64,000 nucleotides of DNA, from contig NZ_JACHZG010000001.1 in assembly GCF_014193425.1 (NCBI RefSeq), positions 1,488,001 through 1,552,000 of the forward strand. Reading direction: 5' to 3'. Source of the DNA: Microlunatus antarcticus (GTDB lineage: Bacteria > Actinomycetota > Actinomycetes > Propionibacteriales > Propionibacteriaceae). A model generated the notes under the pieces. The model did no database searches, was not told where the DNA came from, and worked only from the letters and a program-made list of their open reading frames with translations. The translations under genes were made by a program, and so were the position numbers. Shown here one piece after another: positions 1,911 to 57,231 of the stretch (position 1 is the stretch's first letter; each line of letters starts with the position of its first letter).

Positions 1911-3305
1911 ATGACCCCTTCGACCCGGGCAACGCCGCCTGCGGCAGGTACGCCTGCCCGTCGATCCCGCCGCATCGCCCGCAGGTCCCGCCTCGCGGCC
2001 GCCACCGTCGTGCTGGCGGTGACCTCACTGGTCACGGCAGCCTGCGGCGGGGGGGGAGGAGCGAGCTCGGCTAGCGACATGCAGACGATCACTTACTGGT
2101 CCCCGCCCCAGGCCGGTCAGTCCGAGAGCGGCACGAAGGCCCTTCTGCAACCACTGACCGACCAGTTCAAGGCCGAGACGGGCATCACCGTCAACGTCGA
2201 GGTCATCGACTGGAGCAGCCTGCTCTCCAAGCTCACTACGGCGATCGCCAGCAACACCGGTCCCGACGTCGCCTCGGGGGGCAACACGTGGAACGGCATC
2301 TATTCCGACACCGGCGGCGTCACTCCGTGGACCCCGCAGATGCTCGACCAGATCGGCGGGACCCAGCAGCTCGTACCGGCGTTCACCAAGGTGATGGGCT
2401 ACCCGGGCAAGGACCCGGTCTCCATCCCCATCGGCGGCGGAACCTGGCAGATGGTCTACAACAAGAAGATCCTGGCCGACGCCGGCATCACCGCGCCTCC
2501 GAAGACGTGGGACGAGTTCATCGCCGACGCCCAGAAGACGACCGACCCCGCGAAGGGCATCTGGGGCACCTCGGTCAACGTCGCGAACGTCTCCGACATG
2601 ACCACCTGGGAGTGGATCCTGATGCGCCAGCACGGGGGCGACTTCTTCGACGCCTCGACCGGCAAGGCGGCGGCCGACTCGCCCGCCAACGTCGAGGCCA
2701 TGCAGTTCTTCCTCGACTGGATGGGCAAGGACAAGATCATGTCGCCGCAGGCCGCGCAGTACAACGCGGCCCAGTCGGAGCAGGACTTCAACAACGGCAA
2801 GCTGGCCTTCCTGTTCACCCAGGGCCGCAGCAACGTGACGATGGACCAGTCGAAGTACGAGGCGGCCCTGCTGCCGATGCGGTCAGAGACCCCGCCCGCC
2901 GACCAGGCCGTCCAGTCCCACATCGCTGGGGAGAACGTCATCCTGTTCAGCTCCAGCAAGAAGCAGGACTCCTCGATCAAGTGGATCAAGTTCCTGCTGA
3001 GCACGAAGACCCAGATCACTAAGAACGTCAACAACGGCTCGATCCCCGTCACGCTCGACGCCGCCAAGGCGTCCGAGTTCAGCAAGTACAAGATCGACAA
3101 GATCGACATCGAGATCGCCGACAAGTACGCCCAGCCGCAGCAGATCAACTCCGACGACGGACCGCTGTCGCAGGCGTACACCCGCGCTATCGGTCAGCTC
3201 GCCGGCCAGGTCGCGACCGGCAAGCAGGTCGGGGCACCCGAGATCCAGTCCGCCCTCCAGGGGGTCCAGCAGGCAGCCCTCGCCCGGGAAGCCACCCAGA
3301 AGTGA
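1911..3305 (+). CDS. Extracellular sugar-binding lipoprotein of an ABC importer
   Basis: A 464-residue solute-binding protein of the carbohydrate (SBP type 1) class. The N terminus has an Arg-rich segment, a hydrophobic stretch and a lipobox ending TAAC followed by a Gly-rich linker, so it should be anchored to the outer face of the membrane. The start at ATG 1911 is set by an AGGAGCT-like site (1897-1903) and the signal peptide; the frame is open further upstream but that part overlaps the SDR gene. Two permease genes follow after a strong hairpin. No ATPase gene is in the operon, so a shared MsiK-type ATPase elsewhere probably energises uptake (known for actinobacterial sugar importers; inferred here). 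Confidence 0.9.
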   Translation: MTPSTRATPPAAGTPARRSRRIARRSRLAAATVVLAVTSLVTAACGGGGGASSASDMQTITYWSPPQAGQSESGTKALLQPLTDQFKAETGITVNVEVIDWSSLLSKLTTAIASNTGPDVASGGNTWNGIYSDTGGVTPWTPQMLDQIGGTQQLVPAFTKVMGYPGKDPVSIPIGGGTWQMVYNKKILADAGITAPPKTWDEFIADAQKTTDPAKGIWGTSVNVANVSDMTTWEWILMRQHGGDFFDASTGKAAADSPANVEAMQFFLDWMGKDKIMSPQAAQYNAAQSEQDFNNGKLAFLFTQGRSNVTMDQSKYEAALLPMRSETPPADQAVQSHIAGENVILFSSSKKQDSSIKWIKFLLSTKTQITKNVNNGSIPVTLDAAKASEFSKYKIDKIDIEIADKYAQPQQINSDDGPLSQAYTRAIGQLAGQVATGKQVGAPEIQSALQGVQQAALAREATQK

Positions 3306-3312
3306 CCGGACG

Positions 3313-3341
3313 CCGGTCGGGCGGCACAGCCGCCCGACCGG
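3313..3341 (+). terminator. Strong intercistronic stem-loop
   Basis: Thirteen-base perfect arms (CCGGTCGGGCGGC at 3313-3325, complement at 3329-3341) enclose an ACA loop just after the binding-protein stop. There is no T-tract. In sugar ABC operons such a hairpin usually stabilises the upstream mRNA or partly terminates transcription, giving more binding protein than permease. Confidence 0.7.
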
Positions 3342-3378
3342 CCGTCCCGATCCCACCGCAAAGGCCGGAGGAGAAGCA

Positions 3379-4359
3379 ATGGGCATGACCCAGGGAGCAG
3401 TTGTCCAAGAGCCGACGACGTCCACGCCCGGGCGGGCGAACGGGCTCGTCGCCAAGGTGCGAAGCGCACCGCCGGCCTACCGGCGCCGCGTCTTGTGGTA
3501 CCTGATGGCACCGGCAGTCCTCTGCGAGGCGCTGGTCTACGTCGTACCGATCCTGGTCGGCGTCTTTACCAGCTTCACGAAGGTCAACCAGTTCACGATC
3601 CGCGACTGGTTCAGGGCCCCGTTCATCGGCTTCGACAACTTCAAGCTGATCTTCGGATCGCCCGCGATCGGGGGGCCGATCCTGCGGTCCCTGCTGCTGA
3701 GCCTCGGCTACGTGGTCGCGGTGGTCGCCGTGAGCCTGTTCCTCGGATTTGTCGCCACGGTCTTCGTCCGCAGCCTGCGTCGCGGCCGCTTCTTCCAGAT
3801 CTTCTTCGTCTTGCCCTACGCGACGCCGCTCTACGCCGGTGTCCTGGCGTGGGACTTCGCGTTCCAGGGCAACGGGGCCGTCAACACCCTGCTGCACCAC
3901 GACCTCGGGATCACGGGCGACGTGCTCTACCTCCAAGACCCCTTCGCGTTCTCGAGCCTGGTGGTCACCGCGGTATGGCGCACCTGGCCGTTCGTGTTCT
4001 TGATGATGCTCGCCGCGACGTCGAACATCGCCACCGAGCTCTTCGAGGCGATCTCGGTCGACGGCGGCGGACGGTGGGCCGAGGTGCGCCACGTGATCCT
4101 GCCGCACGTCGCCTCCACGCTCGGGGTGCTCGCTCTGCTGCTGTTCGTGTGGAACTTCAACGACTTCGCTACACCGTTCGTCTTCTTCGGCCAGATCGCG
4201 CCGCAGTCGGGCAACTTGTTCCTGCTCAACACCTACACGACGACCTTCGTCAGCTTCGCCTACAGCGTCGGTGCCGCGATCACGCTGCTCGCGGTTATCG
4301 TCCTGGCGCTCTTCATCGTCGTCCCCTACGTCAAAATCACGCGATTCGGAGACCAGTGA
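3379..4359 (+). CDS. Sugar ABC transporter permease (MalF-type)
   Basis: A 326-residue integral membrane protein with about six hydrophobic segments. Near the C-terminal third is the EAA loop that docks on the ATPase: EAISVDGGGRWAEVRHVILP has the spaced E-A...D-G...I-LP pattern. The ATG at 3379 follows GGAGGAGAA with suitable spacing. Its stop overlaps the start of the next permease by one base, so the two are probably translationally coupled and form a heterodimeric channel. Confidence 0.9.
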   Translation: MGMTQGAVVQEPTTSTPGRANGLVAKVRSAPPAYRRRVLWYLMAPAVLCEALVYVVPILVGVFTSFTKVNQFTIRDWFRAPFIGFDNFKLIFGSPAIGGPILRSLLLSLGYVVAVVAVSLFLGFVATVFVRSLRRGRFFQIFFVLPYATPLYAGVLAWDFAFQGNGAVNTLLHHDLGITGDVLYLQDPFAFSSLVVTAVWRTWPFVFLMMLAATSNIATELFEAISVDGGGRWAEVRHVILPHVASTLGVLALLLFVWNFNDFATPFVFFGQIAPQSGNLFLLNTYTTTFVSFAYSVGAAITLLAVIVLALFIVVPYVKITRFGDQ

Positions 4360-5207
4360 TGAAGGACGTCCTCAGCTTTCGGGTCGCGCGGGTGGTCGTG
4401 CTGGCTGCCCTGTCGGTCTTCGTCCTGTTCCCGATCTACATCGCGTTCGTCACGGCGGCGACTCGCTTCGAAGACTTCTCCAACACCTTCCAGTGGTGGC
4501 CGCAGCATCCGGACCTCGGCGCGTTCGTCGACGTCTGGCACGAGACGCCTCTGGCCAAGTACTTCATGAACAGCATCATCGTCACCGTCGCGACGGTGGC
4601 CATCGCTATCCCGATCGCGCTCGCAGCGGCTTACGGCGTCAGCCGCTACCGCTTCCCCGGGCGGCAGGCCTTCTTGGCCGTCATCCTGTCCACGCAGATG
4701 TTCCCCGGCATCTTCTTCCTGATCCCGCTATTCCTGCTGCTCGTCAAGCTGCAGGGCCTGGTCGGCGTCCAGCTGGTCGGGTCCAGGCCAGCGCTGGTCC
4801 TGGTCTACCTCTCGTTCGCACTGCCGTTGTGCATCTGGGTCCTGGCGGGCTACTTCGCCTCCATCCCGAAAGACATCGAGGAGGCCGGCATGATCGACGG
4901 GTTGTCCGACGTCGGGGCCTTCGTCCGGCTCGTCCTGCCGTCCAACCTGGGGGCCGTGGTCGCCGTCGCCGTCTTCGCGACGGTGCTGTCCTGGAGCGAG
5001 GTCCTCTTCGCGTCCGTGCTCACGACGAACGCGACCCAGACGCTCGCGATCGGGCTGTCGGCGATCGTCGCGCAGCCCACCTCACCGATTCACTGGAACA
5101 ACATCATGGCGGCCTCGATCCTGGCCAGCCTCCCGATCGTGGTCGCCTTCTCGCTGGTCCAGAAGCGCTTCGTCCAGGGCCTCTCCAGCGGCGCGGTCAA
5201 GGGCTGA
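4359..5207 (+). CDS. Sugar ABC transporter permease (MalG-type)
   Basis: A 282-residue membrane protein starting MKDVLSFRVARVVV, with about six transmembrane segments and an EAA loop (EEAGMIDGLSDVGAFVRLVLP). The ATG at 4359 overlaps the TGA of the preceding permease. The open frame extends far upstream, but that part only shadows the first permease. It partners the preceding gene in carbohydrate uptake. Confidence 0.9.
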   Translation: MKDVLSFRVARVVVLAALSVFVLFPIYIAFVTAATRFEDFSNTFQWWPQHPDLGAFVDVWHETPLAKYFMNSIIVTVATVAIAIPIALAAAYGVSRYRFPGRQAFLAVILSTQMFPGIFFLIPLFLLLVKLQGLVGVQLVGSRPALVLVYLSFALPLCIWVLAGYFASIPKDIEEAGMIDGLSDVGAFVRLVLPSNLGAVVAVAVFATVLSWSEVLFASVLTTNATQTLAIGLSAIVAQPTSPIHWNNIMAASILASLPIVVAFSLVQKRFVQGLSSGAVKG

Positions 5208-5291
5208 CGCGGTCGGCCACCGTCCGACAGGCCCGCTGCCGGTCCTGAAGATCTATCCGCACGGCGGCCTGTGCCGCGTCCGCGAAAGGTT

Positions 5292-6695
5292 GTGAGCACC
5301 ATCTCCACCACCGCTGCACCCGAGCCCGTGACGTTCCCTGACGGCTTCGGCTGGGGCACCGCGACAGCGAGCTACCAAATCGAAGGAGCGGTCGGCGTCG
5401 ACGGGCGCTCACCCTCGGTCTGGGACACGTTCTCCCACACCCCCGGGATGATCACCGACGGCTCGAACGGTGACCGTGCCGACGACCACTACTACCGCTA
5501 CGCCGAGGACGTCGAGCTGATGGCCGACCTCGGCACGAGCTTCTACCGCTTCTCCTTCGCCTGGCCCCGGCTGCAGCCGGACGGCCACGGCAAGCTCAAC
5601 CCAGCCGGCCTCGCGTTCTACGACCGGCTCACCAACAAGCTGCTCGAGCGCGGCATCACCCCCTGGGTGACCCTCTACCACTGGGACCTCCCGCAGGTCC
5701 TCGAGGACGCCGGCGGCTGGCCCGTCCGCGACACGGCCCTGCGCTTCGCCGACTACTCCACCCAGGTGTTCGACGCGCTGAAGGACAAGGTCGAGCACTG
5801 GACGACGCTCAACGAACCCTTTTGCGCCGGCCTCCTGAGCTACGCCGCCGGCCAGCTCGCGCCAGGCCGCAACGAGCCGGTCGCCGGCATCCACGCGGTC
5901 CACCACCTGCTGCTGGGGCACGGCTTGGCGCTGCAGGCGATGCGTACCCAGGCCGGTCCGGAGCACCAGTTCGGTCTCACGCTGAACCTGTCGCCGGTCG
6001 CTGCGGCCACGGACAGCGAGGCGGACGCCGACGCGGCCCGGCGCATCGACGCCCTGTCCAACCGGCTCTTCCTCGACCCCATCCTGAAGGGCAGCTACCC
6101 CGAGGACCTCGTCGCGGATCTGGCTCCGCTGATGACCTTCGACCACGTCCAGGCTGGCGACCTCGAGCTCATCAGTCAGCCGATCGAGGCGCTGGGCATC
6201 AACTACTACATGAAGTACGTGGTCCGGGCCGGTCGGAACCACCGCTACCACGGGACGCCGTACGTCGGCTCCGGCGACGTCGAGTTCGTCGGCGCCGGGC
6301 TCCCGCGGTCAGCCCGCGGTTGGGAGATCAACCCCGACGGGCTCTACGAGCTGCTGACCCACGTGTCGAGCGCCTACGACGCACCACCGCTGTGGATCAC
6401 CGAGAACGGCATCGCCCTGGACGACGTCGTCGACGCCGACGGCGCAGTGCACGACCCGGACCGCATCGCCTACCTCGACGCCCACTTCCGGGCCGCGCAC
6501 CGCGCCATCACCGACGGGGTCGACCTGCGGGGCTACTTCATCTGGACGCTCACCGACAACTTCGAGTGGTCCTACGGGGAGTCGTCCCGCTTCGGCCTGG
6601 TGCACGTGGACTACGAGACGCAGGTCCGCACGCCCAAGGACAGTGCCGCCTGGTATGCGAAGGTCACGGCCGACAACGGCCTGGGAGAAGCATGA
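5292..6695 (+). CDS. Glycoside hydrolase family 1 beta-glucosidase
   Basis: A GH1 retaining glycosidase of about 467 residues, full length for the family and without a signal peptide, so cytoplasmic. The acid/base Glu is in TLNEPF (about residue 176) and the nucleophile in ITENG (about 371). The N-terminal FGWGTATASYQIEG and the C-terminal NFEWSYG aglycone-site region are intact. GTG at 5292 gives the typical short N terminus; GTG at 5271 is an in-frame alternative, and neither has a strong ribosome site. It should hydrolyse a beta-linked di- or oligosaccharide brought in by the adjacent ABC system, for example cellobiose (inferred). Confidence 0.92.
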   Translation: MSTISTTAAPEPVTFPDGFGWGTATASYQIEGAVGVDGRSPSVWDTFSHTPGMITDGSNGDRADDHYYRYAEDVELMADLGTSFYRFSFAWPRLQPDGHGKLNPAGLAFYDRLTNKLLERGITPWVTLYHWDLPQVLEDAGGWPVRDTALRFADYSTQVFDALKDKVEHWTTLNEPFCAGLLSYAAGQLAPGRNEPVAGIHAVHHLLLGHGLALQAMRTQAGPEHQFGLTLNLSPVAAATDSEADADAARRIDALSNRLFLDPILKGSYPEDLVADLAPLMTFDHVQAGDLELISQPIEALGINYYMKYVVRAGRNHRYHGTPYVGSGDVEFVGAGLPRSARGWEINPDGLYELLTHVSSAYDAPPLWITENGIALDDVVDADGAVHDPDRIAYLDAHFRAAHRAITDGVDLRGYFIWTLTDNFEWSYGESSRFGLVHVDYETQVRTPKDSAAWYAKVTADNGLGEA

Positions 6696-10584: not shown

Positions 10585-11048
10585 CTTGCGGGTGTGGCAC
10601 CGGGAGCCGCTGGCTGCGAGGGCACGCTGATGCCGCAGGCCTTCAGTGCGGCCTGGACCTTGGTGTCGCTGAAGTCGATCCCGCCGCCACCTCCGCCTGG
10701 ACCGCCCGATGGTGCCCCGCTTGGCGCGGCTCCGCTAGGCATGCCGCTCGGCGGGGTCCCGTCGCCGGGACCGCCGTCGCTCGGCATCTCGCTGGGTGTG
10801 CCGCTCGGCCTGGTCACCTCGATGCCCGCGGCTTCGAGGCAGGCCTGGACCTGCTGCATCTGTGCTCCGCCCCCACCGCCGGGGCCGCCCGCCTGAGCGC
10901 TGGAGGTGGGGGACGCGGACGGGGTCGAGCTGCTTTCGGAACCTCCGCAGGCGCTGAGGCTGGCCGCCAGGGTGAGCAGCAGCGCACCACAGGTGACAGC
11001 GCGAGGAAAGCGGCGGGGCCGGGTGGCCGTATGGGTGCCGGTGGTCAT
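10581..11048 (-). CDS. Gly/Pro/Ser-rich lipoprotein of the efflux operon
   Basis: A 155-residue secreted lipoprotein: basic N terminus, hydrophobic segment, then a lipobox ending SAC at about residue 34. The body is a low-complexity Ser/Gly/Pro linker (repeated PSGMPSG, PSGAPSG) flanked by two short related modules, VQACLEAAGIEV and VQAALKACGISVP, each with one Cys. The two Cys could pair. It is the fifth gene after the MacA-like gene on the same strand and may serve the exporter outside the membrane. No known function. Confidence 0.75.
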   Translation of the reverse strand: MTTGTHTATRPRRFPRAVTCGALLLTLAASLSACGGSESSSTPSASPTSSAQAGGPGGGGGAQMQQVQACLEAAGIEVTRPSGTPSEMPSDGGPGDGTPPSGMPSGAAPSGAPSGGPGGGGGGIDFSDTKVQAALKACGISVPSQPAAPGATPAS

Positions 11049-11068
11049 GCTGAGCCTTTCGGTCGTGG

Positions 11069-11880
11069 TCAGGAGACGGTGACGCTGGTCGCGGTGACCG
11101 AGCCGTCGGAGGTGGTGGTGCCCGTGACGGCGACGGTGTCGCCGGCCTCGAGCGAGTTGTGGCCGTACGGCGCGGTGACGGTGGTGGTGCTGGTGATCAC
11201 GACGGTGTGTTTGGTGCCGCCCAGGTCGGTGACGACCAGCGACTTCGTACCGGAGGACGAGACGGTGCCGACGACCACGGGCGTGCTCGGGGCGGTGGAG
11301 CCGCCGCCCGACCTGCCGCCGGCCCCCGCCTGGTTGCCGGTCGACCCCGAGGCGGCACCACCTGGTAAAGCCTGACCGCTCGAGGTCCCGCCGGGCATGC
11401 CCTGGCCGCCGGTGCCTCCGTTCGGGAAGCCCTGTCCGCTGGCGCCGCCTGGCATGCCCTGGCCGACGGCGGAGTTGGCCGAGCCGAGCTGCTTCTCCAC
11501 CCAGACTCCGCCGAGCACGCCGAGGGCTAGTACGAGGGCGGCGATCAGCCCTACGGTCAGACGGCTTGGACCACGGCGTTCCTGGGGGAGGTAGTCCTCG
11601 TCGTCGAGGAAGCTGTCGCCTCCGTCGGGAACCGCGTCGTTGTGGTTGGTTCCCTCGCCGGCCCCCGAGGCCGACGCTGTGGAGTCATCCATGTAGTCCC
11701 CGGGCCAGAGGCGGATCCGGGTCTCCTCGTCCGGCTTGCCGTCGGACGACAGGATTGCGGTGGACGTGTCGGACGGGGTTGTGTTGTCCGAGGTGTCTGG
11801 CTGGGAGTTCATCAGCTCGCCCAGCGAGGTGTTGTCGGGGTGTCGTGACCAGCGCATGAGGTGGGCCTTCTTCTCGGGTG

Positions 11881-11884
<4 letters not shown>
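11069..11884 (-). CDS. Membrane-anchored Gly-rich protein with C-terminal OB-like (DUF5666-like) domain
   Basis: A 271-residue protein. The acidic cytoplasmic N terminus (about 110 residues) is followed by one transmembrane helix (LTVGLIAALVLALGVLGGVWV). A Gly-rich linker with repeats of GQGMPGG and GQALPGG comes next, then an outer beta-rich domain (VVVGTVSSSGTKSLVVTD ... AGDTVAVTGTT) that looks like the OB-type DUF5666 fold. The GTG start overlaps the stop of the permease gene (GTGA), so it is coupled to the exporter. It is likely an accessory part of the efflux complex; this is inference. Confidence 0.75.
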
Positions 11885-13175
<1,291 letters not shown>

Positions 13176-47708: not shown

Positions 47709-50700
47709 TCACCTGGTGCGGCCCTGGACAGGTCCCGATGGCTGACCAGCGTTTCCCACATCTTCCAAGTGAGTCTCGCGCTGATCGAGGGTGGTCGCGG
47801 GTCGGCGTGTGGCGGGTGATGGACGTAGCAGGTCGAGTCGTTCCCCAACCCGACCCTCTCGTGTCGGCGGCTGAGAGTCGTTCTGGACGTGGTGGAGGAG
47901 TTGTTCGCGCAGCCAGGTGGGATCGAGGTGGTGCTTGTGGGTGAGCATGTCGACCGAGGTCGCCCAAGTGCGCGGCGGGCGGGCGGCGGCGATGCGCAGG
48001 AACCAGTCGATCTGTTCACGAACAGCCTGCCCGGGACTTGTGCGCAGGTGGTCTGCGAGAGGGCCGGCGTTGGCCAGCACGGCTCGGACGCTTGCGGCGC
48101 CGTGACGGCGGTAGAGCTCGGCGGGATCGGCCGATGCGGGTAGCTGAGCAAATCGCGGGTCGAGATTGGCGTGCGTGAGGGTCCAGAAGGCGCGCTCGGC
48201 TGCTGCGGCTCCTGCGGTGTCGGGGTCAGGGGCGAGGATCGGGTCCATCCGGAGATGGCCGATTAGCGCGGCTTGCTGGTCGGTGAGGGCGGTGCCGAGG
48301 GTGGCGACGCCGGTGTGGCGGTCACCGTCGGCGAGGCTGATGGCGATGGCGTCGAGTGGTCCCTCGACCAGCACGGGAACTCGTGCAGCGCTGCCCGTGC
48401 GGGTGAGCTCGTTGTCGTCGACAGGGCGTTGAGCTCGTCCCCGGCCGAGCAGATGGGCGCCGTAGAGGTGGTGACTCTTGCTGTAGAGGGCGGTGGTCGG
48501 GGTGTTCAGATACTTCGGTTCGGTGGGTGTGCCTGGCCGGTCGTGGCGTCGGGCGACGAAGCCGACGAGGTCGCCGTCGGTGTCGTGGATGGGCAGGACG
48601 AGTCGGTCGCGGAACAGGTCGATCAGGTTCCCGTGGCTCGTGTGGCGGGCCACGCCGGCGTCGAGCATGTCCTGGTCGGTAACGCCACGGGTGCGGAGGT
48701 GGTCGATGAGGTGGGTCCAGCCGGCTGGTGCGTGGCCGGGGGAGAAGCGGGCGTCGTCGGCAAGGTCCTTGCCGCACCGTTCGGTGAGGTATCGCGCAGA
48801 CCAGGACCCGGCGTACCGGCTGCGGTAGTAGTGCAGCGTCAGCTCGTTGACCTTCAGCAGTTCCGCTCGACGCTCGGGCGCCAGCTCGACAGAAGGGCGC
48901 TCGGGTACGGGTGCCGGTTGGCCGAGGCGGAGCATGCCAGCCACAAGAAGAGCCAGATCCACCCGGTGCTGCGCTGTGACCATCCTCGCCGGTGCCGGGC
49001 CCTCGGGTATCCGCGTGGTGTTGTCGGACTGGTTGGCCGGTCGTCGCTCGAGCGCCTTGATGGCCTCGGGCGAAAGGTGTCGTTGCAGGCGCCACCACAA
49101 GGCCGCGGAGGGGTAGTCGTCGGGTAATGGCTTCTCGTCGAGCGCTGCTTGCAGCGCCGGTCTGACGGCGACGTCTTGACGCGTGAGAGAGGCGAGGTGG
49201 CGTTCGAGCTGTGGCCGGTAGGGGTCGGTCCCCGGCCGGGCGAATGGCGACAGCAGCGGTTCGGCATGGTCGGTTGCGGCGACTCCAGACGCAACCTCGA
49301 GGTGGTGATACCAGGGTTGCGTGGACGGGTCGGTCGGAGGTGCTCCGAGCGGGCTGGGGTCGTTCGTAGGGATTCGGTGGCTCGCTCGCCAGACGGCGAT
49401 GTCGCCGACGACATCGGGATTTGCGTCTTCCGGGAGGGCGTTGGTCCACGCTGGCCGGACGTACGCGCTGTTGGTTCGAACCGCTTCGGCGAGGTCGCGG
49501 ACGAGGGTGCTGCGGGCGGTGAGATAGGCACCGAAGGTCGGGTGCTCGAGGAGGCGTTCCGGCACCGGGGGCAGCCAGGGCAGCGGACCACCGGCTGGCG
49601 ATGCCTGGCCGCTAAGGATGCGGCGGTGCAGGACAGCCGCCCGGTCGTGGGCGGGCCTGTCCGGGTCGTCGAGGAGTTGGAGCGCGACGGCGACGGCGAG
49701 GGTGAGCTGGTGTGCGGGGTCGTGGCCGTAGGTGGCGTCGAGAAGAAGCTGGGATCGCAGTGTGGGCCACGCGGGTTCGTCGGTCAGGCCGGGGACGAGT
49801 CGCTGGGCTGTCGTCGTGAGGTGGAGGTCGACTTCGGGTGGGGTGGTGTGTTCGGCGGCGAGGCGGAGGCTGTCGCGGTAGCGGTCTATCTCGTCGGGGA
49901 GCCGGAGCGTGGGGTCGTGCAGGTCCTCGCGGTAGCCGGTGGCGGATTGGTCGTCGCCGTCACGGGTGACGATCTGCTCCAGCATCTGCGTCGCGGTCCG
50001 AGATGGTGCCGCGTCGGGCCCGGTCGGCTCGCGGGTGCCGGCGTCGGGGTCGAGCTGGAGGTAGACGTGGTTCGCGGACCTGCCTCGGGTGAGGAGTGTG
50101 TACAGCTGCGCGCGGGTTTCTTGGCCGGTGATCAGGCCGTGGACGGTGTCGCACGTGGAGCCTTGCGCGGCGTGGATGGTGCTGGCGTAGCCGAGCTCGA
50201 CCGACTCCGTGACATAGGGGGCGGGGAGCGTGACCTTCCGGTCGCCGTTCATGGTTCGTACGGTGAGCCTTCCGTCGCGGTGGACATGATTGACCCTCCA
50301 CCGGTCGCCGTTGCGGACCCACCGCGACCCTGACCTGAGGCGTCGGTCGTTCGTCCTGGTGATGACCGTGTCGCCGACGCTGGCGTGGTTGTGGTCCGCG
50401 AGGACCACCTCGCGCACGTCCGACGCGGATGTTGGAGCTGTCGAGAGGCGTGTGGCGCGGGCGCGTGCGTTCAGGTCAGCGGCGAGGTCGCGGGTCGGGG
50501 CGAGCATCAGGCTGTCGCGACCCTCGGCCCGGTCGGTGGTCCAGGCGGCGAACAGCTGGTCGGCTGCGGTCGTGGTGTCGCCGACGTGGATGCGGTGTTC
50601 GTCGAGGTAGAAGCCGATCGCCTCGGGGCGCCCCTCGCGCAGCGCCAGCGACGCGGCCGCCTCCGCTGCATCACTGAAGCGGACGACGTCGTCGAGCCGA

Positions 50701-52889
50701 ACCGCCCCATGCCGCGCCGCCAGGTCGCGGAGGACACCGCCAGCGCCGACAGCAGCAAGCTGCTGGTCATCGCCGACCAGCCGCACTGAACCCCCGACCT
50801 TCAGCACGTAAGAGATTGCGCGGGCCAGGCTCGGGCTGTCGGCCAGCCCGGCCTCGTCGACCACGACCAACGAACGAGGGCCCAGCTCACTCACCCAGGC
50901 CGGTCGCGGCGCGTCGAGATGGTCGAGGGCCCAGACGAGCTTGGCGAGGGTGTCGGTCGGCCCGTCCAGCTGCTCGGCGAGGACGCCGGCCGCCGCGGCG
51001 GACGGGGCCAGTCCGACCACGTTCCCTCCGGCCGACACCCACGCCTGAGCCAGCACCCGCAGGGCGGTGGTCTTGCCGGTCCCGGCCGGAGCCAGGGCCA
51101 GCTGCACCCGCCGCCCTGAACCGGCCAGCTCCCGCACAAGCCCGACCTGACCCGGGTTCAACGCCGGCCCCTCCAACGCTGCCTGACTGAGAGCCAGCTC
51201 GACCGTTGCTGTGTCGACCCGCCGGCCGTCATGCCGCGCTCCGGCGGCAACAATCTCGTCTTCCGCCGTCAGCACGCGCGAGGACGTCCACCGGTGCGTT
51301 CCGACGACCTCGTACACCGACGACCCGTCCGACCGCTGCAGCTCCACTGGCACTGGTAGGCCTGGGGGTCCCATCAGGGGAACGCAGCGATTGATCGCGT
51401 CGCCGACCACGAGGTCCACGACATGGCCCGCCATGTCGGGGGTGACATCGAGGGTGCGAACCTGCCGCTGCGCCTCGGCCTGCAGGTGCCACACATTCCA
51501 CGTCGCTCGTTCGGCCTCAAGAACCGCGACGAGCTGTCCGGCGGTCTGGGCGATCCAAGCTCCGTCGACGGGTGGGCCGACCTCTAGTCGGGGAGCAAGG
51601 GCCCGGAAGACCATCGAGTCCACGACAGCCCGGCCGCCCAGCAGCTGATCTGCCTGCGCGGCCCACGCCGTGCGCTGCTCGTCGAGGCTGCGGGGCTCGT
51701 GCTTCGCCGGTCGTGTCTCGAGGGTCGCCTGCTGGGCCAGCGCCCACGCCTCGCGACGCGTCGGCGGCCGCCCGGTCTGCTGCTGGAAGTCACGCGCGAG
51801 CTCGGCCCGGCGCACGTCGATGTCGCGCCGCCGCGACGACCAACCCTCGAGCAGTCGCCCGTCGACGCCGACCACCTCCCGCACCGGACGCCGTCCTCGA
51901 TCACCGGACTCTCCGGTCAACCGGGAAGCGAAGCGCAGGCCGAGTCGTTCCCCCAGGTGACGTTCCACCGCCGTGTTGTACGTCTCCGACGCCGCAACGG
52001 TCGCGGCGTAGAGGACGCGCCCGTCGATTGCGAGCCACTTGCCCTGGCGGGTTTGCACCTTGTTCGCGACCGCCACGTGGGTGTGCAGGTCCGGATCCCC
52101 CGCACGAGAGTCGCGGTGAGTGAACGCCGCACCCACCAGACCGGTCACCTCAACCTGACGTACCCCCCGCGCACCCTCACGCGAGAACAACGCCCGCGTC
52201 TCGACCAACCGCAAGGCGTCCCCGACCGCCGCGCGATGGCATCGCTCGATCTCCGCAGCGACAGCCGGGGGAGCGACCGCCCACAAAGCCGACACCGACT
52301 TCACCGGTGAGAACGTCAGGTCGAACCCCGACACGGGCTGCGCAGGACTCGCCGACCACCGCGCCACCGCGGACGACAGCTCCCGTGCATCCGACGGAGC
52401 CCGACCGTGTTGACGCTCGAACCACTCCGCCGCGACCTTCGACACTGCCGCCGCCCGCCCGGTCTGAGGCGACGTCGGTGGTTCACCGGAGGAAGAACGG
52501 CGCGCCGCGAGGCGCCGCGACACTTCCGCCTCGAACGCGGTGTCGGAGGTTGACCGAACCCGGAACGGTGCGCCGAGATGGCCAGCCTTCGCCGACTCCG
52601 ATAAGGACGCTCCGGCCGCCGCGGCTGTCGCGACACGTGATTCCGCGAGGGGGTGCAGGCCCTGGCCGAACAAGGACCGCATCTGCTCGGCCTCGACCAC
52701 CTGTCCGGCTGTGAGTCCGTCTACGCCGGCCAGGCCAGACCCGACCCACAGCCCCGGCGTCTCGCCTCGCTCGGAGTAGTACGACGCCAGAGGCGCCCGG
52801 CCAGCGTGCGTCGCGTCCTGGCGCGCGACCTGTCGGGTCAGGTACTCGTAACCCGACCCCGCCCACAACTTGTGCAGCGACAACGTCAC
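47709..52889 (-). CDS. MobF-type relaxase fused to helicase and DnaG/TOPRIM-like primase
   Basis: A 1726-residue transfer initiator. Residues 1 to about 430 are a TrwC-type relaxase: candidate catalytic tyrosines in SGYEYLTRQ at the N terminus and the metal-binding histidines in DPDLHTHVAVANK (about 268). A RecD/TraI-like helicase follows with Walker A LAPAGTGKTTALRVL (about 600), VVDEAGLADSP (Walker B) and a C-terminal YASTIHAAQGSTCDTV. Residues about 1345-1600 are a DnaG-type catalytic region (YLTERCGKDL, DRLVLPIHDTDGDLVGFVAR, TOPRIM LVEGPLDAIAISLADGDRH). Nicking, unwinding and priming in one chain would let it start replication of the transferred strand. GTG start. Confidence 0.9.
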   Translation of the reverse strand: MTLSLHKLWAGSGYEYLTRQVARQDATHAGRAPLASYYSERGETPGLWVGSGLAGVDGLTAGQVVEAEQMRSLFGQGLHPLAESRVATAAAAGASLSESAKAGHLGAPFRVRSTSDTAFEAEVSRRLAARRSSSGEPPTSPQTGRAAAVSKVAAEWFERQHGRAPSDARELSSAVARWSASPAQPVSGFDLTFSPVKSVSALWAVAPPAVAAEIERCHRAAVGDALRLVETRALFSREGARGVRQVEVTGLVGAAFTHRDSRAGDPDLHTHVAVANKVQTRQGKWLAIDGRVLYAATVAASETYNTAVERHLGERLGLRFASRLTGESGDRGRRPVREVVGVDGRLLEGWSSRRRDIDVRRAELARDFQQQTGRPPTRREAWALAQQATLETRPAKHEPRSLDEQRTAWAAQADQLLGGRAVVDSMVFRALAPRLEVGPPVDGAWIAQTAGQLVAVLEAERATWNVWHLQAEAQRQVRTLDVTPDMAGHVVDLVVGDAINRCVPLMGPPGLPVPVELQRSDGSSVYEVVGTHRWTSSRVLTAEDEIVAAGARHDGRRVDTATVELALSQAALEGPALNPGQVGLVRELAGSGRRVQLALAPAGTGKTTALRVLAQAWVSAGGNVVGLAPSAAAAGVLAEQLDGPTDTLAKLVWALDHLDAPRPAWVSELGPRSLVVVDEAGLADSPSLARAISYVLKVGGSVRLVGDDQQLAAVGAGGVLRDLAARHGAVRLDDVVRFSDAAEAAASLALREGRPEAIGFYLDEHRIHVGDTTTAADQLFAAWTTDRAEGRDSLMLAPTRDLAADLNARARATRLSTAPTSASDVREVVLADHNHASVGDTVITRTNDRRLRSGSRWVRNGDRWRVNHVHRDGRLTVRTMNGDRKVTLPAPYVTESVELGYASTIHAAQGSTCDTVHGLITGQETRAQLYTLLTRGRSANHVYLQLDPDAGTREPTGPDAAPSRTATQMLEQIVTRDGDDQSATGYREDLHDPTLRLPDEIDRYRDSLRLAAEHTTPPEVDLHLTTTAQRLVPGLTDEPAWPTLRSQLLLDATYGHDPAHQLTLAVAVALQLLDDPDRPAHDRAAVLHRRILSGQASPAGGPLPWLPPVPERLLEHPTFGAYLTARSTLVRDLAEAVRTNSAYVRPAWTNALPEDANPDVVGDIAVWRASHRIPTNDPSPLGAPPTDPSTQPWYHHLEVASGVAATDHAEPLLSPFARPGTDPYRPQLERHLASLTRQDVAVRPALQAALDEKPLPDDYPSAALWWRLQRHLSPEAIKALERRPANQSDNTTRIPEGPAPARMVTAQHRVDLALLVAGMLRLGQPAPVPERPSVELAPERRAELLKVNELTLHYYRSRYAGSWSARYLTERCGKDLADDARFSPGHAPAGWTHLIDHLRTRGVTDQDMLDAGVARHTSHGNLIDLFRDRLVLPIHDTDGDLVGFVARRHDRPGTPTEPKYLNTPTTALYSKSHHLYGAHLLGRGRAQRPVDDNELTRTGSAARVPVLVEGPLDAIAISLADGDRHTGVATLGTALTDQQAALIGHLRMDPILAPDPDTAGAAAAERAFWTLTHANLDPRFAQLPASADPAELYRRHGAASVRAVLANAGPLADHLRTSPGQAVREQIDWFLRIAAARPPRTWATSVDMLTHKHHLDPTWLREQLLHHVQNDSQPPTREGRVGERLDLLRPSPATRRPATTLDQRETHLEDVGNAGQPSGPVQGRTR

Positions 52890-53360: not shown

Positions 53361-53561
53361 TCAGCTGCCGGGAGGCGGGGTGTCTCGCCGCTTCCTGTCC
53401 GCGTCGGAGAACTCGCCGTTGATGATCCGGTCAGCCATGCTTCTTGCGTCTAACTCGTTCTCGTAGCCCTGCCCGCCGTCGGTCGCCACGACCTCGCCGT
53501 TCACGGTGAGGTTCCAGGCCCACTTGTCGTCTTTGCGCTTGTACACCAGTCGCTTAGCCAC
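53361..53561 (-). CDS. DUF1508 (YegP-like) small protein
   Basis: A 66-residue protein from GTG 53561: KRLVYKRKDDKWAWNLTVNG, then GEVVATDGGQGYEN and DARSMADRIINGEF. It has the W-x-W/strand and G-x-Y pattern of one DUF1508 repeat, a small alpha/beta fold of unknown function often duplicated in enterobacterial YegP. A GGAGC precedes the start closely. It lies between the relaxase and the TIR operon. Confidence 0.75.
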   Translation of the reverse strand: MAKRLVYKRKDDKWAWNLTVNGEVVATDGGQGYENELDARSMADRIINGEFSDADRKRRDTPPPGS

Positions 53562-53768
53562 GCTCCGACTGTGCCACAGGCCGCGCCTACGGGGCAGTAG
53601 TCTGCACCTCGCCGACAGCCAAGAGGTGCGGCCGGAGCCGCACACGCCGCCCGGGTGGTGGTTGTGAGGGCGATAAGCCCTAGCGACTCGCTGACCGCAT
53701 GCTTGGCCGTTGGACAGGCGCGGCACGCCCCGAAGGGGAGTTCTCAGTAGCGGCTGAGTTGGAGCGCT

Positions 53769-53822
53769 GTTCTCCCGCACGTAACTAGCCGGGCGATCCG
53801 GCAGTGGGACGTGCGGGAGAAC
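53769..53822. terminator. Long nested stem-loop ending the TIR operon
   Basis: GTTCTCCCGCACGT (53769-53782) pairs perfectly with 53809-53822. The 26-base interior contains a second stem GCCGG/CCGGC (53788-53802). It begins one base after the stop codon of the minus-strand TIR gene, as expected for a terminator. Confidence 0.7.
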
Positions 53823-53823
53823 C

Positions 53824-54609
53824 TCAGCCGATCCGGACCGGAGAGTCCTCGACGCGCCGGCGGACGCTGTGGTTCACCCGCAGGCCGTGGGCCCGCAAAT
53901 CGGCAGCGAACTCGCGAAGCCGTACCCGCGAAGATGACGGTTCACCAATACTGAAAGTTAGCGTCCGCCCACGCGGGCTCTGTACGCGCAAGGTGGTGTG
54001 AGAGTTAGTCCGAACCCGCCAACCTTGGGCTGCAGCATCAGCACAGATCCGCTGAATCTCGTAGTGCAGCACCTGCGCGTGGTCCGCTCCAGTAGCCGAG
54101 CCCACGGCTGAACCTGAGCCGGGGTCAGACCGGGTCCCCAGAGCGTGGACGCGCTCGAGAATCTGTGTGGCGGCCGTGCCCACGGCAGCGCGATGGTTGC
54201 CGCCGGGCCGGGGCCGGTAGGGAATATAGGTCAGGCCGAGTAGGTCGGTCGGGAGCTGCATCGAAACGGTGGTGTCGGCGATCAGGTAGGTGCGCTGCCG
54301 GCCTAGGACGCCGACGAACAAGCCGAGTTCCAAGATCACGTTGTCCCGAGGCGAGGCAGCGCGATCACCACGCTTTTCCGAGATGTCATCGGGAGTAGCG
54401 ACTATGACGGCGAAGTCGATGCGTCGAGCGGCGTCCACCAGCCCCTCGATCGTGTACTGCGACGGCAGAATGGCACCCTGCGTCCACAGCTCGACGTCGC
54501 ACTCGCCGGACGACTCCAGCTCGGCCTGAAGGTTGCGGCAGACGTCAATCGCCTCCGACGACGACGCGACGAAGATCTGGGGCCGTCGTTCGCTGGGCAC
54601 TGAGCTCAC
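53824..54609 (-). CDS. TIR-like nucleotide-binding protein with a HicA-like C-terminal domain
   Basis: A 261-residue protein. Residues about 10-165 match the TIR-like nucleotide-binding family (PF10137 type): PQIFVASSSEAIDVC, VELWTQGAILPSQYTIEGL, DFAVIVATPDD, and SPRDNVILELGLFVGVLGRQ with the expected catalytic Glu, then LPTDLLGLTYIPY. Such domains hydrolyse NAD+ in several antiphage systems. Residues about 180-250 (ADAAAQGWRVRTNSHTTLRV, QSPRGRTLTFSIGEPSSSRV, REFAADLRAHGL) look like the HicA-type RNA-binding/ribonuclease fold with its His retained. I know of no such fusion. It is the last gene of a three-gene operon, three bases after the Pro-rich gene. Confidence 0.75.
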   Translation of the reverse strand: MSSVPSERRPQIFVASSSEAIDVCRNLQAELESSGECDVELWTQGAILPSQYTIEGLVDAARRIDFAVIVATPDDISEKRGDRAASPRDNVILELGLFVGVLGRQRTYLIADTTVSMQLPTDLLGLTYIPYRPRPGGNHRAAVGTAATQILERVHALGTRSDPGSGSAVGSATGADHAQVLHYEIQRICADAAAQGWRVRTNSHTTLRVQSPRGRTLTFSIGEPSSSRVRLREFAADLRAHGLRVNHSVRRRVEDSPVRIG

Positions 54610-54611
54610 GG

Positions 54612-54854
54612 CTAGGAGCTCTTCTTGGGTACCCGGGGCGGGGTGGGAGGTGGCTTGGTCCCGCGACGCTCAGGGACTGTTGGCGAGGGGCGCGAAGGGG
54701 GCGTTGGCCGTTGCGGTGCAGGCTGCTGCGGGGGGGGCCCGCCGCCGGTGACGGCGACGTTCGGCGACGGCCTGGTCGGCGGTGCCGGCCGCGCCGGCTG
54801 TACCGGAGCGGATGGCGGGGCTGGCTCTTGGCGGGCCTTGTTCTTGTCGGACAC
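54612..54854 (-). CDS. Short Pro-rich protein between the membrane and TIR genes
   Basis: An 80-residue basic, disordered protein from GTG 54854 (SDKNKARQEPAPPSAPVQP, then repeated PPSRPSPT/PPTRPSPN motifs, ending KKSS). It starts 14 bases after the stop of the membrane-protein gene and ends two bases before the TIR gene. It may tether the TIR protein to the membrane protein, in the manner of a PxxP linker. No homology is recognised and composition alone supports it, but the spacing fits an operon. Confidence 0.5.
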   Translation of the reverse strand: MSDKNKARQEPAPPSAPVQPARPAPPTRPSPNVAVTGGGPPPQQPAPQRPTPPSRPSPTVPERRGTKPPPTPPRVPKKSS

Positions 54855-54867
54855 GTGCGCCCTGTCG

Positions 54868-55434
54868 CTAGAAGATGATGACGACGGCCCAGAAGGCAAC
54901 CTCTGCGGCTATTGCGATGATCGCGACCTCCAGCAGCAGCCACAAGTTCTTGAGCTTGGTGTCATTCTCTCTGAGATCGTCGGTGATGAAGTACGCCAGG
55001 TCTCGGCGCATCTCGTTGATAGTTGCTGGGGGATCGGCCTCGACGTAGTCGATGAGGAGCTTGTGCCCGTCGGTCCGCCACTTCCACTCGCGCGGCCACA
55101 AGATCAGGACGGCGGACACGACCACAACGCCAAGGGCGACGAGCGCCAAGCCAACGAACAGGCGGTCCGACCACCCCTGGTTGATGCGCAGCGCGGACGT
55201 GCTGAGCAACGAAGTCCCTAGCGCGGCTGCTGCGACCAGGGTGGCCGCTCTCGAGCGGAGCTCGTTCAAGCCGGCCTGCTGCTGGGACAATCCACGTAGG
55301 ACCTGCTCTAAGACGAGCGAGATTCGCGGATCTGCGCTACTGGTCCGATCGAGGTCGGAGGTCGGGGTACCACTCGGCGGGGCGCTGACCGGTTCGAGTG
55401 GCTGGGCGTACCGTCGTCGTCGCCACATGATCAC
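54868..55434 (-). CDS. Three-helix membrane protein, first gene of the TIR operon
   Basis: A 188-residue protein: a basic N terminus (MWRRRRYAQ), an amphipathic helix (VLEQVLRGLSQQQAGLNELR), two hydrophobic helices (SRAATLVAAAALGTSLLS and FVGLALVALGVVVVSAVLIL), a cytoplasmic middle and a last helix (LWLLLEVAIIAIAAEVAFW). The overall shape resembles the small membrane effectors found with nucleotide-signalling and NADase defence genes (SLATT/PycTM-like), but no motif makes that certain. GTG 55434 or ATG 55428 is the start. It leads the operon with the Pro-rich and TIR genes. Confidence 0.65.
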   Translation of the reverse strand: MIMWRRRRYAQPLEPVSAPPSGTPTSDLDRTSSADPRISLVLEQVLRGLSQQQAGLNELRSRAATLVAAAALGTSLLSTSALRINQGWSDRLFVGLALVALGVVVVSAVLILWPREWKWRTDGHKLLIDYVEADPPATINEMRRDLAYFITDDLRENDTKLKNLWLLLEVAIIAIAAEVAFWAVVIIF

Positions 55435-55773: not shown

Positions 55774-56307
55774 TTACTCGACGTGTTCGACGTGCGCGAC
55801 GACGTCGCTGCAGGCCTCGCGCCAGCGGCCGCCTTGGGGCCAGGCCCACGCAACCGCGTCTGGGATGGCCAGCAGAGGTTCGTTCACGACTTTGCCGTGG
55901 GTATAGGTCAATCCTGTGTAGCCGACCTGGTTGAGCTTGCGTGCGATGGTGTGCCGATCGACGTGGGCGATGGAGTCGTCGCGGTCGAGGCAGAGGTTCG
56001 CGTGCCCCTGTTCGGCGATGTCCTCGACCAGCCGCTCGAGGCAGCGAAGCCGAGCCTCGCGCTCGCTGTTGTGAGTTCCTTTGGAGGCGAAGTACACGTT
56101 CACCGCGACGTCGATCGCGGCAACCGCTCGCAGGATGGTCCGCTGCCGGCCTGCTCCTTCTTTCACCATGTGGAGGCCGTGCTGTCCGGGAAGGTAGAGG
56201 TCTTGAATCGTCCTGCGTGCCGTAGCCAGGTTGCCCGGTACGACAGTGGCGGCGATGAGCACGAAGTCCCGCCGCTTGCTCTCGTCAACGAAGACGTGCG
56301 CTGACAC
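55774..56307 (-). CDS. DUF3800-like protein (RNase H fold)
   Basis: A 177-residue protein from GTG 56307. The N terminus HVFVDESKRRDFVLIAATVV is the DUF3800 pattern with the first acidic pair (DE). Further acidic residues follow in LCLDRDDSIAHVDR and in IPDAVAWAW, placed like the RNase H catalytic set. DUF3800 proteins are common in mobile and defence regions, and nuclease activity is suspected. It is upstream of, and on the same strand as, the TIR operon, 340 bases away. Confidence 0.7.
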   Translation of the reverse strand: MSAHVFVDESKRRDFVLIAATVVPGNLATARRTIQDLYLPGQHGLHMVKEGAGRQRTILRAVAAIDVAVNVYFASKGTHNSEREARLRCLERLVEDIAEQGHANLCLDRDDSIAHVDRHTIARKLNQVGYTGLTYTHGKVVNEPLLAIPDAVAWAWPQGGRWREACSDVVAHVEHVE

Positions 56308-56409
56308 CGCGGTGACCCCTGCTCTTTGACTCGGTGATTGAGACCCGTCCGAGGTCTGGCTCGCGCTCGTTGTCGCCCGCCAGGCCACACCTACTGGCCT
56401 TGCGCGTTT

Positions 56410-57165
56410 CTACCTGTTATCCGGGTGGGTCTGGGCCGCCGCGACGGCCATCAGCTCGTCGACGGAGAGCAGGTAGGCGTCGCGCCGGCCTGACCACGGA
56501 CGCCCGGCTCTGATGCGGCGGTACTCCGCGAGCATTCTCAGGTACCGCTCAAGGGTGGGGGAGTGAGAATTTCCCCCGGTGGGGCCGTTGATGAAGTCAA
56601 CCTGCTCAGACCAGCGGTCATTGGCGACAAGGTGCCGGACGTAGTCCGCCATCTGCCCCTCGAGGGGGTCGTTGTGGTCAAAGCCCCCGAAGCGCAGGTC
56701 CTCGACCAGCTCTTCGCCAGCCGGTTTACCGGCCTTCTCAAGTTCGGAGAGGCTGTAACGCGCGATCCGGAACATGTCAAGGATATCCATCACCCGCTTG
56801 CAATCGCGGTTGCTGAGCTCGGCCGAGATGCCGGCGAACTCGACCCAGTACTCCTGCGTGTAACCCTTCTCCAACACCTCCGCGCGCTCGAGCTGGTAGG
56901 CCGCATCGCCGTCGACGTCGTTCGCGTCCTCGGGCAGCACCCTGGCCAGGATCCGGTGCAGCAGGGAGAGCGTGCGGCGGTCATGCAGGCTGAGCGATTC
57001 AGGAACAGGAACCTCCGAGGTCGCGTCGTCGTCGGCGCGCACCTTGACGACCTGCTCGCGGATCAGGTCGCGCACGAAGTCGCTCACGGTGACGCGCTCA
57101 GCGTCGGCGCGTTGCTGCAGGGCCTCACGTGTGTCGTCATCAAGCCGAACAGTGATCGTGGGCAA
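56410..57165 (-). CDS. YfbU-family protein with an N-terminal ribbon-helix-helix domain
   Basis: A 251-residue protein. TTG 57165 is chosen because AAGGAG lies four bases ahead and the protein then begins PTITVRLDDDTREALQQRAD, an intact ribbon-helix-helix DNA-binding domain. Residues about 75-230 are a YfbU domain: SLHDRRTLSLLHRILARVLP, YQLERAEVLEKGYTQEY, VMDILDMFRIARYSL, FDHNDPLEGQMADYVRHLV. YfbU itself has no fixed role, although the E. coli protein has been linked to cell death. The fusion suggests an autoregulated toxin-like or stress protein (inferred). Confidence 0.85.
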   Translation of the reverse strand: MPTITVRLDDDTREALQQRADAERVTVSDFVRDLIREQVVKVRADDDATSEVPVPESLSLHDRRTLSLLHRILARVLPEDANDVDGDAAYQLERAEVLEKGYTQEYWVEFAGISAELSNRDCKRVMDILDMFRIARYSLSELEKAGKPAGEELVEDLRFGGFDHNDPLEGQMADYVRHLVANDRWSEQVDFINGPTGGNSHSPTLERYLRMLAEYRRIRAGRPWSGRRDAYLLSVDELMAVAAAQTHPDNR

Positions 57166-57231
57166 GAGGCTCCTTGTAATACGACACCCGCGCAGCGGCT
57201 TACTCGAATACGGTAACACAAGGTTGCTTCG

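Follow-up and report, generated by a model that had tools for sequence, protein, structure and literature searches.

The question raised by this locus is whether three closely spaced genes on the minus strand of the window (the whole stretch of Microlunatus antarcticus DNA that was analysed, 64,000 nucleotides) constitute a single antiphage system and, if not, what the TIR–HicA-like protein encoded by the last of them works with. The earlier note had described these genes as a candidate operon, and the three ORFs were confirmed at 55434-54868, 54854-54612, and 54609-53824. The features that enter the argument are the following.

54868..55434, minus strand: membrane protein, no family; separate module
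54612..54854, minus strand: Pro-rich protein, GTG start aligned with the start of the homologue in G098, a congener of the window; separate module
53824..54609, minus strand: TIR–HicA-like gene, 261 aa, GTG start, TGA stop
54217..54579, minus strand: TIR domain of the CAP12/Pycsar type, residues 11-131 of the TIR–HicA-like protein
53827..54087, minus strand: HicA-like C-terminal domain, approximately residues 175-261, with invariant arginines and a variable HicA-type His
53718..53823, minus strand: conserved noncoding element, probable structured RNA, directly after the stop codon; found in 4/4 loci
53769..53822, minus strand: hairpin P1 (GTTCTCCCGCACGT / ACGTGCGGGAGAAC), sequence variable, pairing kept
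53756..53767, minus strand: invariant 12-nt motif GCGCTCCAACTC, identical in 4/4 loci
53743..53758, minus strand: hairpin P2 (CTCAG...CTGAG; CTCGG...CCGAG in the genomes G287 and G447), with a rival helix predicted in the window
53718..53724, minus strand: invariant GCCGCGC closing the element

The TIR domain and its HicA-like tail

The assignment of the last gene product to the PF10137-type TIR-like proteins, made in the earlier note, is borne out by a match above the curated cut-off (E 1.5e-27; 96.4 bits against 24.7). The best PDB sequence matches are PycTIR (8jsj, 4.2e-22) and entries for CD-NTase-associated protein 12 (7un8, 4.8e-19), and the PADLOC effector models match the protein at up to 7.8e-48. 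The 7UN8 structure is that of SfSTING, the active site of which is described as R78, N80, the catalytic E84, and D110 (PMC9402430). In the PDB alignment, these residues correspond to R88, N90, E94, and D122 of the window protein, on the assumption that the PDB chain is offset by 8 residues, as deduced from the alignment itself. All four residues are invariant in 4/4 full-length TIR–HicA-like proteins, so the catalytic Glu is kept, as had been claimed. Judging by sequence, the window TIR domain belongs to the CAP12/Pycsar NADase type, retains the active-site residues, and is presumably an active NADase.

The same TIR subtype, in which the catalytic Glu and the residues near it are conserved, is found in PycTIR of Pycsar and in Cap12/TIR-STING of CBASS, and the differences lie in the partner domains. 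PycTIR is described as carrying an N-terminal cNMP-binding domain (PMC11224242), whereas the window TIR domain is itself N-terminal and its partner is HicA-like; TIR-STING is described with a STING domain (PMC9402430), the place of which is taken here by the HicA-like domain. Neither a CD-NTase nor a pyrimidine cyclase was found among the scanned neighbours in the window or among the annotated genes of locus L002, or in the part of the G287 and G447 neighbourhoods that was scanned. Thus, no adjacent cyclase of the kind that defines CBASS and Pycsar was seen, and the tail is neither a STING domain nor a CNBD.

Full-length TIR–HicA-like relatives are rare, with four members known including that of the window. 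The others are encoded on the Curtobacterium plasmid NZ_CP126282.1 (51% identity), in G287 (47%; another family of the same order as the window), and in G447 (50%; another family of the same class). The genome searches with the TIR protein or its tail covered overlapping samples of 198, 391, 394, and 396 genomes. The first protein search gave 11/198 genomes at E 0.001 before rows were dropped, namely a plain TIR protein (L003), two TIR proteins with another C-terminal part (L004, L005), L006-L008, which were also left out, and L009-L012, apparently chance matches judging from translation in a single frame. In the subsequent samples, the matches comprised 4/391 genomes (no related ORF was seen in G361, and G178 was left out), 5/394 (G707 and G711 encode standalone HicA-like proteins, and in G211 no related ORF was seen), and 2/396 (G789, again a standalone HicA-like protein). 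Two scans of genome contigs, one with the whole protein (348 pattern matches) and one with the tail (209), turned up no relative, and neither did two viral scans with protein queries. Searches in the genera around G447 and G287 gave 1/3 and 1/15 genomes, both already-known members. In L004 and L005 (G108 and G097, congeners of the window), a CAP12-type TIR domain is fused to another, uncharacterised C-terminal domain that is closely alike in both.

The last ~85 residues of the window protein match no Pfam family above the cut-off, and PF07927 (HicA_toxin) gives no match to the tail even at E 10. Genome profile searches with the tail, however, reach short standalone ORFs in G707 (1.2e-6), G711 (4.6e-7), and G789 (3.1e-4). 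These three, two proteins from plasmids, and three from phages make up a set of eight standalone HicA-like proteins, with which the four tails align in a single hhalign comparison at 97.6% probability and E 3e-12. PF07927 is the best Pfam family for 6/8 of the standalone proteins, at values of 3.6e-4 to 0.058 that are all below the cut-off, and is not matched by the G711 and G707 proteins (L039, L040). Of the phage records that match the G789 protein (L044), 13/17 are labelled HicA-like toxin and 4/17 hypothetical protein. The window tail itself matches none of the phage records and, among plasmids, only that of Curtobacterium; the PHROG family phrog_2089 is matched by L044 (6.9e-13), L039 (1.3e-4), and, weakly, the window tail (0.012), and PDB searches with the tail profiles give best E values of 0.2 and 0.97. 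Through this indirect chain of profile comparisons, the tail is homologous to HicA-like proteins, so the resemblance to HicA suggested in the earlier note was right as homology; together with the PF10137 and PDB matches, the comparison also supports the description of the protein as a TIR effector with a HicA-like tail.

According to reviews (PMC11594946, PMC7180214), HicA adopts a dsRBD-like fold and has a catalytic His that is conserved. Although the domain of the window protein is homologous by profile comparison to HicA toxins and to HicA-like proteins (phrog_2089), it is fused to TIR, and the HicA-type His is lost in 3/4 members, the corresponding position being H/E/P/V. The supposed retention of this His is therefore not a feature of the family. 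Conserved in the four tails are, instead, R208, R228, R232, R239, R244, R250, and R251. Because the His is present in just 1/4 members and the arginines are kept, the tail looks like a catalytically dead RNA-binding module. RNA cleavage by the tail was rejected on the same ground, and with it the suggestion that the protein could attack RNA is disfavoured, whereas RNA sensing or binding is plausible and has a concrete candidate ligand adjoining the gene. No HicB-type partner was found among the scanned window neighbours or annotated in L002. Compared with the window, the tail is conserved better than the whole protein in Curtobacterium (60% over 78 residues, or 56% over a longer stretch, vs 51%) and in G287 (54 vs 47%), and less well in G447 (47 vs 50%).

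Behind each of the standalone HicA-like ORFs (L039 801-1073, L040 1450-1740, and L044 1486-1773) stands a gene whose product has, by eye, an HTH-like segment at its C-terminus; the partner protein in L039 has a weak HTH_17 match. This pairing is an unnamed HicA-like toxin-antitoxin type.

The membrane and Pro-rich genes

In the window, 2 nt separate the stop codon of the Pro-rich gene from the start of the TIR gene, and this tight spacing favours a three-gene system in which a membrane sensor and a Pro-rich adaptor would serve the TIR–HicA-like effector. The three genes are, however, not co-conserved within the stretches compared. In tblastn searches at E 0.1, the membrane and Pro-rich pair (window and G098 versions) was absent from the 10.5-13 kb surrounding each of the three remaining TIR–HicA-like genes (0/3; L002, L025, L042), and the TIR–HicA-like protein found no match in the 12 kb around the G098 pair (L027). 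Since each occurs without the other, the pair and the TIR gene are two separate modules, adjacent to each other in the window, with one other pair known (G098). The three-gene operon was accordingly rejected; the co-conservation expected in the earlier note failed when checked, the sensor and adaptor roles that it proposed are left unsupported by the same comparisons, and we give a system of this kind almost no credence.

G098 has homologues of both pair genes (50% identity for the membrane protein; 59% over 64 aligned positions for the Pro-rich protein, L014 1988-2233), and there the pair is preceded by genes of the XRE and ImmA/IrrE (PF06114) types. The membrane-protein search gave 4/198 genomes, among which G053 and G071 (L015, L016) had no Pro-rich match, and no match among plasmids. 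The window pair (55434-54612) possibly belongs with a G098-type operon, a separate regulated defence module. That operon (L014 422-2233) consists of the XRE gene (capH-like, 8.3e-5), the ImmA/IrrE gene (capP-like, 3.7e-9), and the genes for the membrane and Pro-rich proteins.

Of the two families named in the earlier note, YfbU was recovered, in a protein at 56410-57219 that joins a ribbon-helix-helix domain to a YfbU domain (RHH_1 3.3e-7, YfbU 2.9e-39), and DUF3800 was not, the ORF at 55774-56388 having no Pfam support at E 1. A small DUF1508-like gene (53361-53561; 3.1e-4, just below the cut-off) lies downstream of the noncoding element in the window, and on the Curtobacterium plasmid, DUF2188 genes stand on both sides of a HicA gene. 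The window also contains an ORF of 1726 aa (47709-52889) that by eye is of the TrwC/TraA relaxase type and suggests a conjugative element. In G447 (L042), an AAA-like ATPase (a weak match) and an unknown protein are encoded at 3181-5575, upstream of the TIR–HicA-like gene, and a tyrosine-recombinase-like ORF was recognised by eye at 11018-12259.

The noncoding element after the stop codon

The same order of parts follows the stop codon in 4/4 loci: P1, GCGCTCCAACTC, P2, and GCCGCGC. The 12-nt motif lies 44-57 nt past the stop codon in all four, and GCCGCGC lies 16-25 nt past P2. The element was first noticed as a sequence that the Curtobacterium plasmid has in common with the window; protein search later led to the genes in G287 and G447, and the element is present in 2/2. 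In the window, the arms of P1 (53822-53809 and 53782-53769) form 14 bp, and equal stability was reached in 0/500 mononucleotide shuffles, which confirms the strong stem-loop reported after the last gene.

The pairing is retained while the sequence of the hairpins changes. In the first 10 positions of P1, all four sequences pair at 8/10 (38/40 cells), with exchanges among U-A, C-G, and G-C pairs, and P2 follows the consensus CTCRG...CYGAG, in which A-U is exchanged for G-C. In alignment A11, which was model-fitted, 95.5% of the P1 and P2 cells are paired, against 41-66% when the partner is slid by 1-3 columns. The covariation score of A11 is 0.379 vs 0.238 in shuffles, a value reached by 8/500; pairs changed on both sides were matched by 48/500 shuffles and pair types by 235/500, neither of which is striking. 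At the same time, the synonymous sites of the TIR gene are saturated, with 2/51 fourfold sites invariant in the four genes and a longest identical run of 6 nt. Therefore, the identity over 12 nt and the paired flanks are not a residue of recent common descent. The element is under constraint and is probably a structured RNA.

Folding in context gives P1 a probability of at least 0.91 in 4/4 loci. P2 reaches at least 0.99 in three loci; for the window, the prediction instead puts its 5' strand in a helix with the last part of the coding region, at the stop codon (CGGCTGAG; p 0.98). The P1 region of G447 is no more stable than shuffles (101/500) and, folded alone, takes another form. Folding does not point to one strand, the sense strand being more stable in 1/4 loci and the antisense in 3/4. 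Extension of the element beyond GCCGCGC was rejected, as alignments gave no convincing common structure; the 262-nt downstream stretch is unusually stable in the window (z -6.44) and its Curtobacterium counterpart is not (z -0.83).

A covariance model of the four elements (R1) gives one match per TIR–HicA-like locus, downstream of the gene. Against 391 genomes of the order, R1 found 2 genomes, both matches adjoining the TIR gene, and no copy elsewhere; both sequences are in the model, so these matches arise by construction and the scan, run with stricter filters at the cost of weak matches, speaks only to absence elsewhere. R1 had no match at the plain TIR locus (L003), at the two loci with another C-terminal part (L004, L005), at the G098 pair, or at the three standalone HicA-like loci. 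Rfam assigned no family to the element in three copies (window, L022, L038) and gave only chance-level matches elsewhere. DNA searches with the element returned one weak unrelated match among plasmids and none among phages; of two viral pattern scans, one found nothing and the looser one 9 matches, 0 with hairpins by eye. A 21-nt pattern from the window and Curtobacterium, with 3 mismatches allowed, misses G287, where the core was seen by eye. A second exact copy of the 12-mer in the window, without the flanks, lies on the minus strand (first base 49685) inside the ORF 47709-52889, against an expected chance count of 0.009 under an order-2 Markov model.

Hidden coding sequence was rejected as an explanation of the element. 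By eye, the 12-mer does not stand in the same frame relative to the gene in window and Curtobacterium as it does in G287 and G447; read as codons, it (ALQL, or TALQL with flank) would have invariant third positions, yet the synonymous sites of the gene are saturated. The gene listings of the four loci reveal no other common neighbour, so the protein and the element are the minimal unit.

A putative immune enzyme with a candidate RNA partner

The presence of the conserved 3' element at all four genes suggests an immune enzyme under the control of its own RNA. The most likely explanation, with a probability of roughly 0.55, is a one-gene system in which a TIR effector has a cognate RNA of its own; the HicA-like domain would bind this RNA, which would most likely serve as antitoxin or sensor. 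The core of this claim is the functional RNA partner, and the antitoxin direction, its less certain half, is put forward tentatively. We are similarly cautious about the more specific version, an RNA-controlled immune NADase in which TIR is joined to a dead HicA domain that reads a dedicated 3' structured RNA, as antitoxin or tripwire; it is possible and falls short of even odds. RNA binding, NADase activity, and a role in defence are what we infer for the protein. Against the RNA-partner reading count the small number of members (just four), the failure of P2 to appear in the predicted fold of the window, the ordinary stability of the G447 P1 region, the unremarkable counts of pair types and of pairs changed on both sides, and the strand, on which the four loci disagree.

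The position of the element, which begins at the stop codon, would also fit autoregulation through the 3'-UTR, with the HicA-like domain restricting synthesis of the protein or stability of its mRNA by binding the end of that transcript, and an unrelated signal activating TIR. The pairing of CGGCTGAG with the 5' strand of P2 points the same way, but this helix is predicted in the window alone and, by eye, is possible with a bulge in G447 and not in the other two loci, so that we regard autoregulation as doubtful. Hairpins past stop codons are common terminators, and the element might just control 3'-end formation or mRNA stability, leaving the HicA-like domain to sense RNA of phage or host origin directly. 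Such a role leaves the invariant 12-mer and the second hairpin beyond P1 unexplained, and neither of the two terminator-like sites from a consensus scan is at P1, both lying elsewhere on the + strand. Direct sensing, for which the reported RNA binding of dsRBD-type folds (PMC7180214) can be cited, is thus unlikely as the account of this locus. It seems still less probable that the element is a DNA site moving together with the gene, for example an attachment site, a recombination site, or the end of a cassette. The hairpins could form cruciforms, folding favours neither strand consistently, the genes are few and their locations dissimilar, and in G447, the tyrosine-recombinase-like ORF lies ~4 kb downstream; however, in the 391 genomes, R1 detected the element only beside the TIR gene, the 9 viral pattern matches lack the hairpins by eye, and no recombinase common to the four loci appears in the gene listings.

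Under the preferred reading, a TIR effector with its own RNA, the element would be transcribed together with the TIR–HicA-like gene, and the HicA-like domain would bind the RNA, keeping the protein inactive. Infection might then deplete or alter the RNA, through host shut-off or phage RNases, whereupon the TIR domains would assemble and destroy NAD+, leading to abortive infection. This course is modelled on RNA-antitoxin systems (AbiF/RCd22 and type III toxin-antitoxin). The sign could also be the opposite, with the RNA as an activating scaffold.

In AbiF/RCd22 and type III toxin-antitoxin systems, a protein gene is described beside a conserved structured noncoding RNA (PMC12373285), and here the putative RNA adjoins the gene in 4/4 loci. 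In those systems, however, the RNA is described as lying upstream, with repeated motifs, and beside another protein family (PMC12373285). The window system has, in contrast, a single downstream element (one R1 match per locus, rather than RNA repeats upstream of a toxin) and a TIR NADase-type protein. Swarozyc is likewise described as a TIR-like NADase in phage defence, an activity that is a prediction for the window protein, but it is reported to assemble with the phage portal and belongs to DUF4062, whereas the window TIR is PF10137 (PMC13174449). Among the literature matches listed, a set that leaves most subscription papers outside its coverage, there were no TIR–HicA proteins and no TIR with an associated RNA. 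The parts are thus of known kinds, and the TIR–HicA-like combination and the element appear to be new.

TIR NADases are described as being switched on by cyclic nucleotides (PMC11224242, PMC9402430), and short Argonautes as working with TIR-domain NADases (PMC10474274). A TIR protein tied to its own structured RNA, if confirmed, would represent a new switch for these enzymes and would show an RNase toxin domain converted into an RNA sensor. Damage to RNA metabolism during infection would, in that case, be turned directly into NAD+ loss, and the element offers a short, well-defined candidate RNA with an invariant motif.
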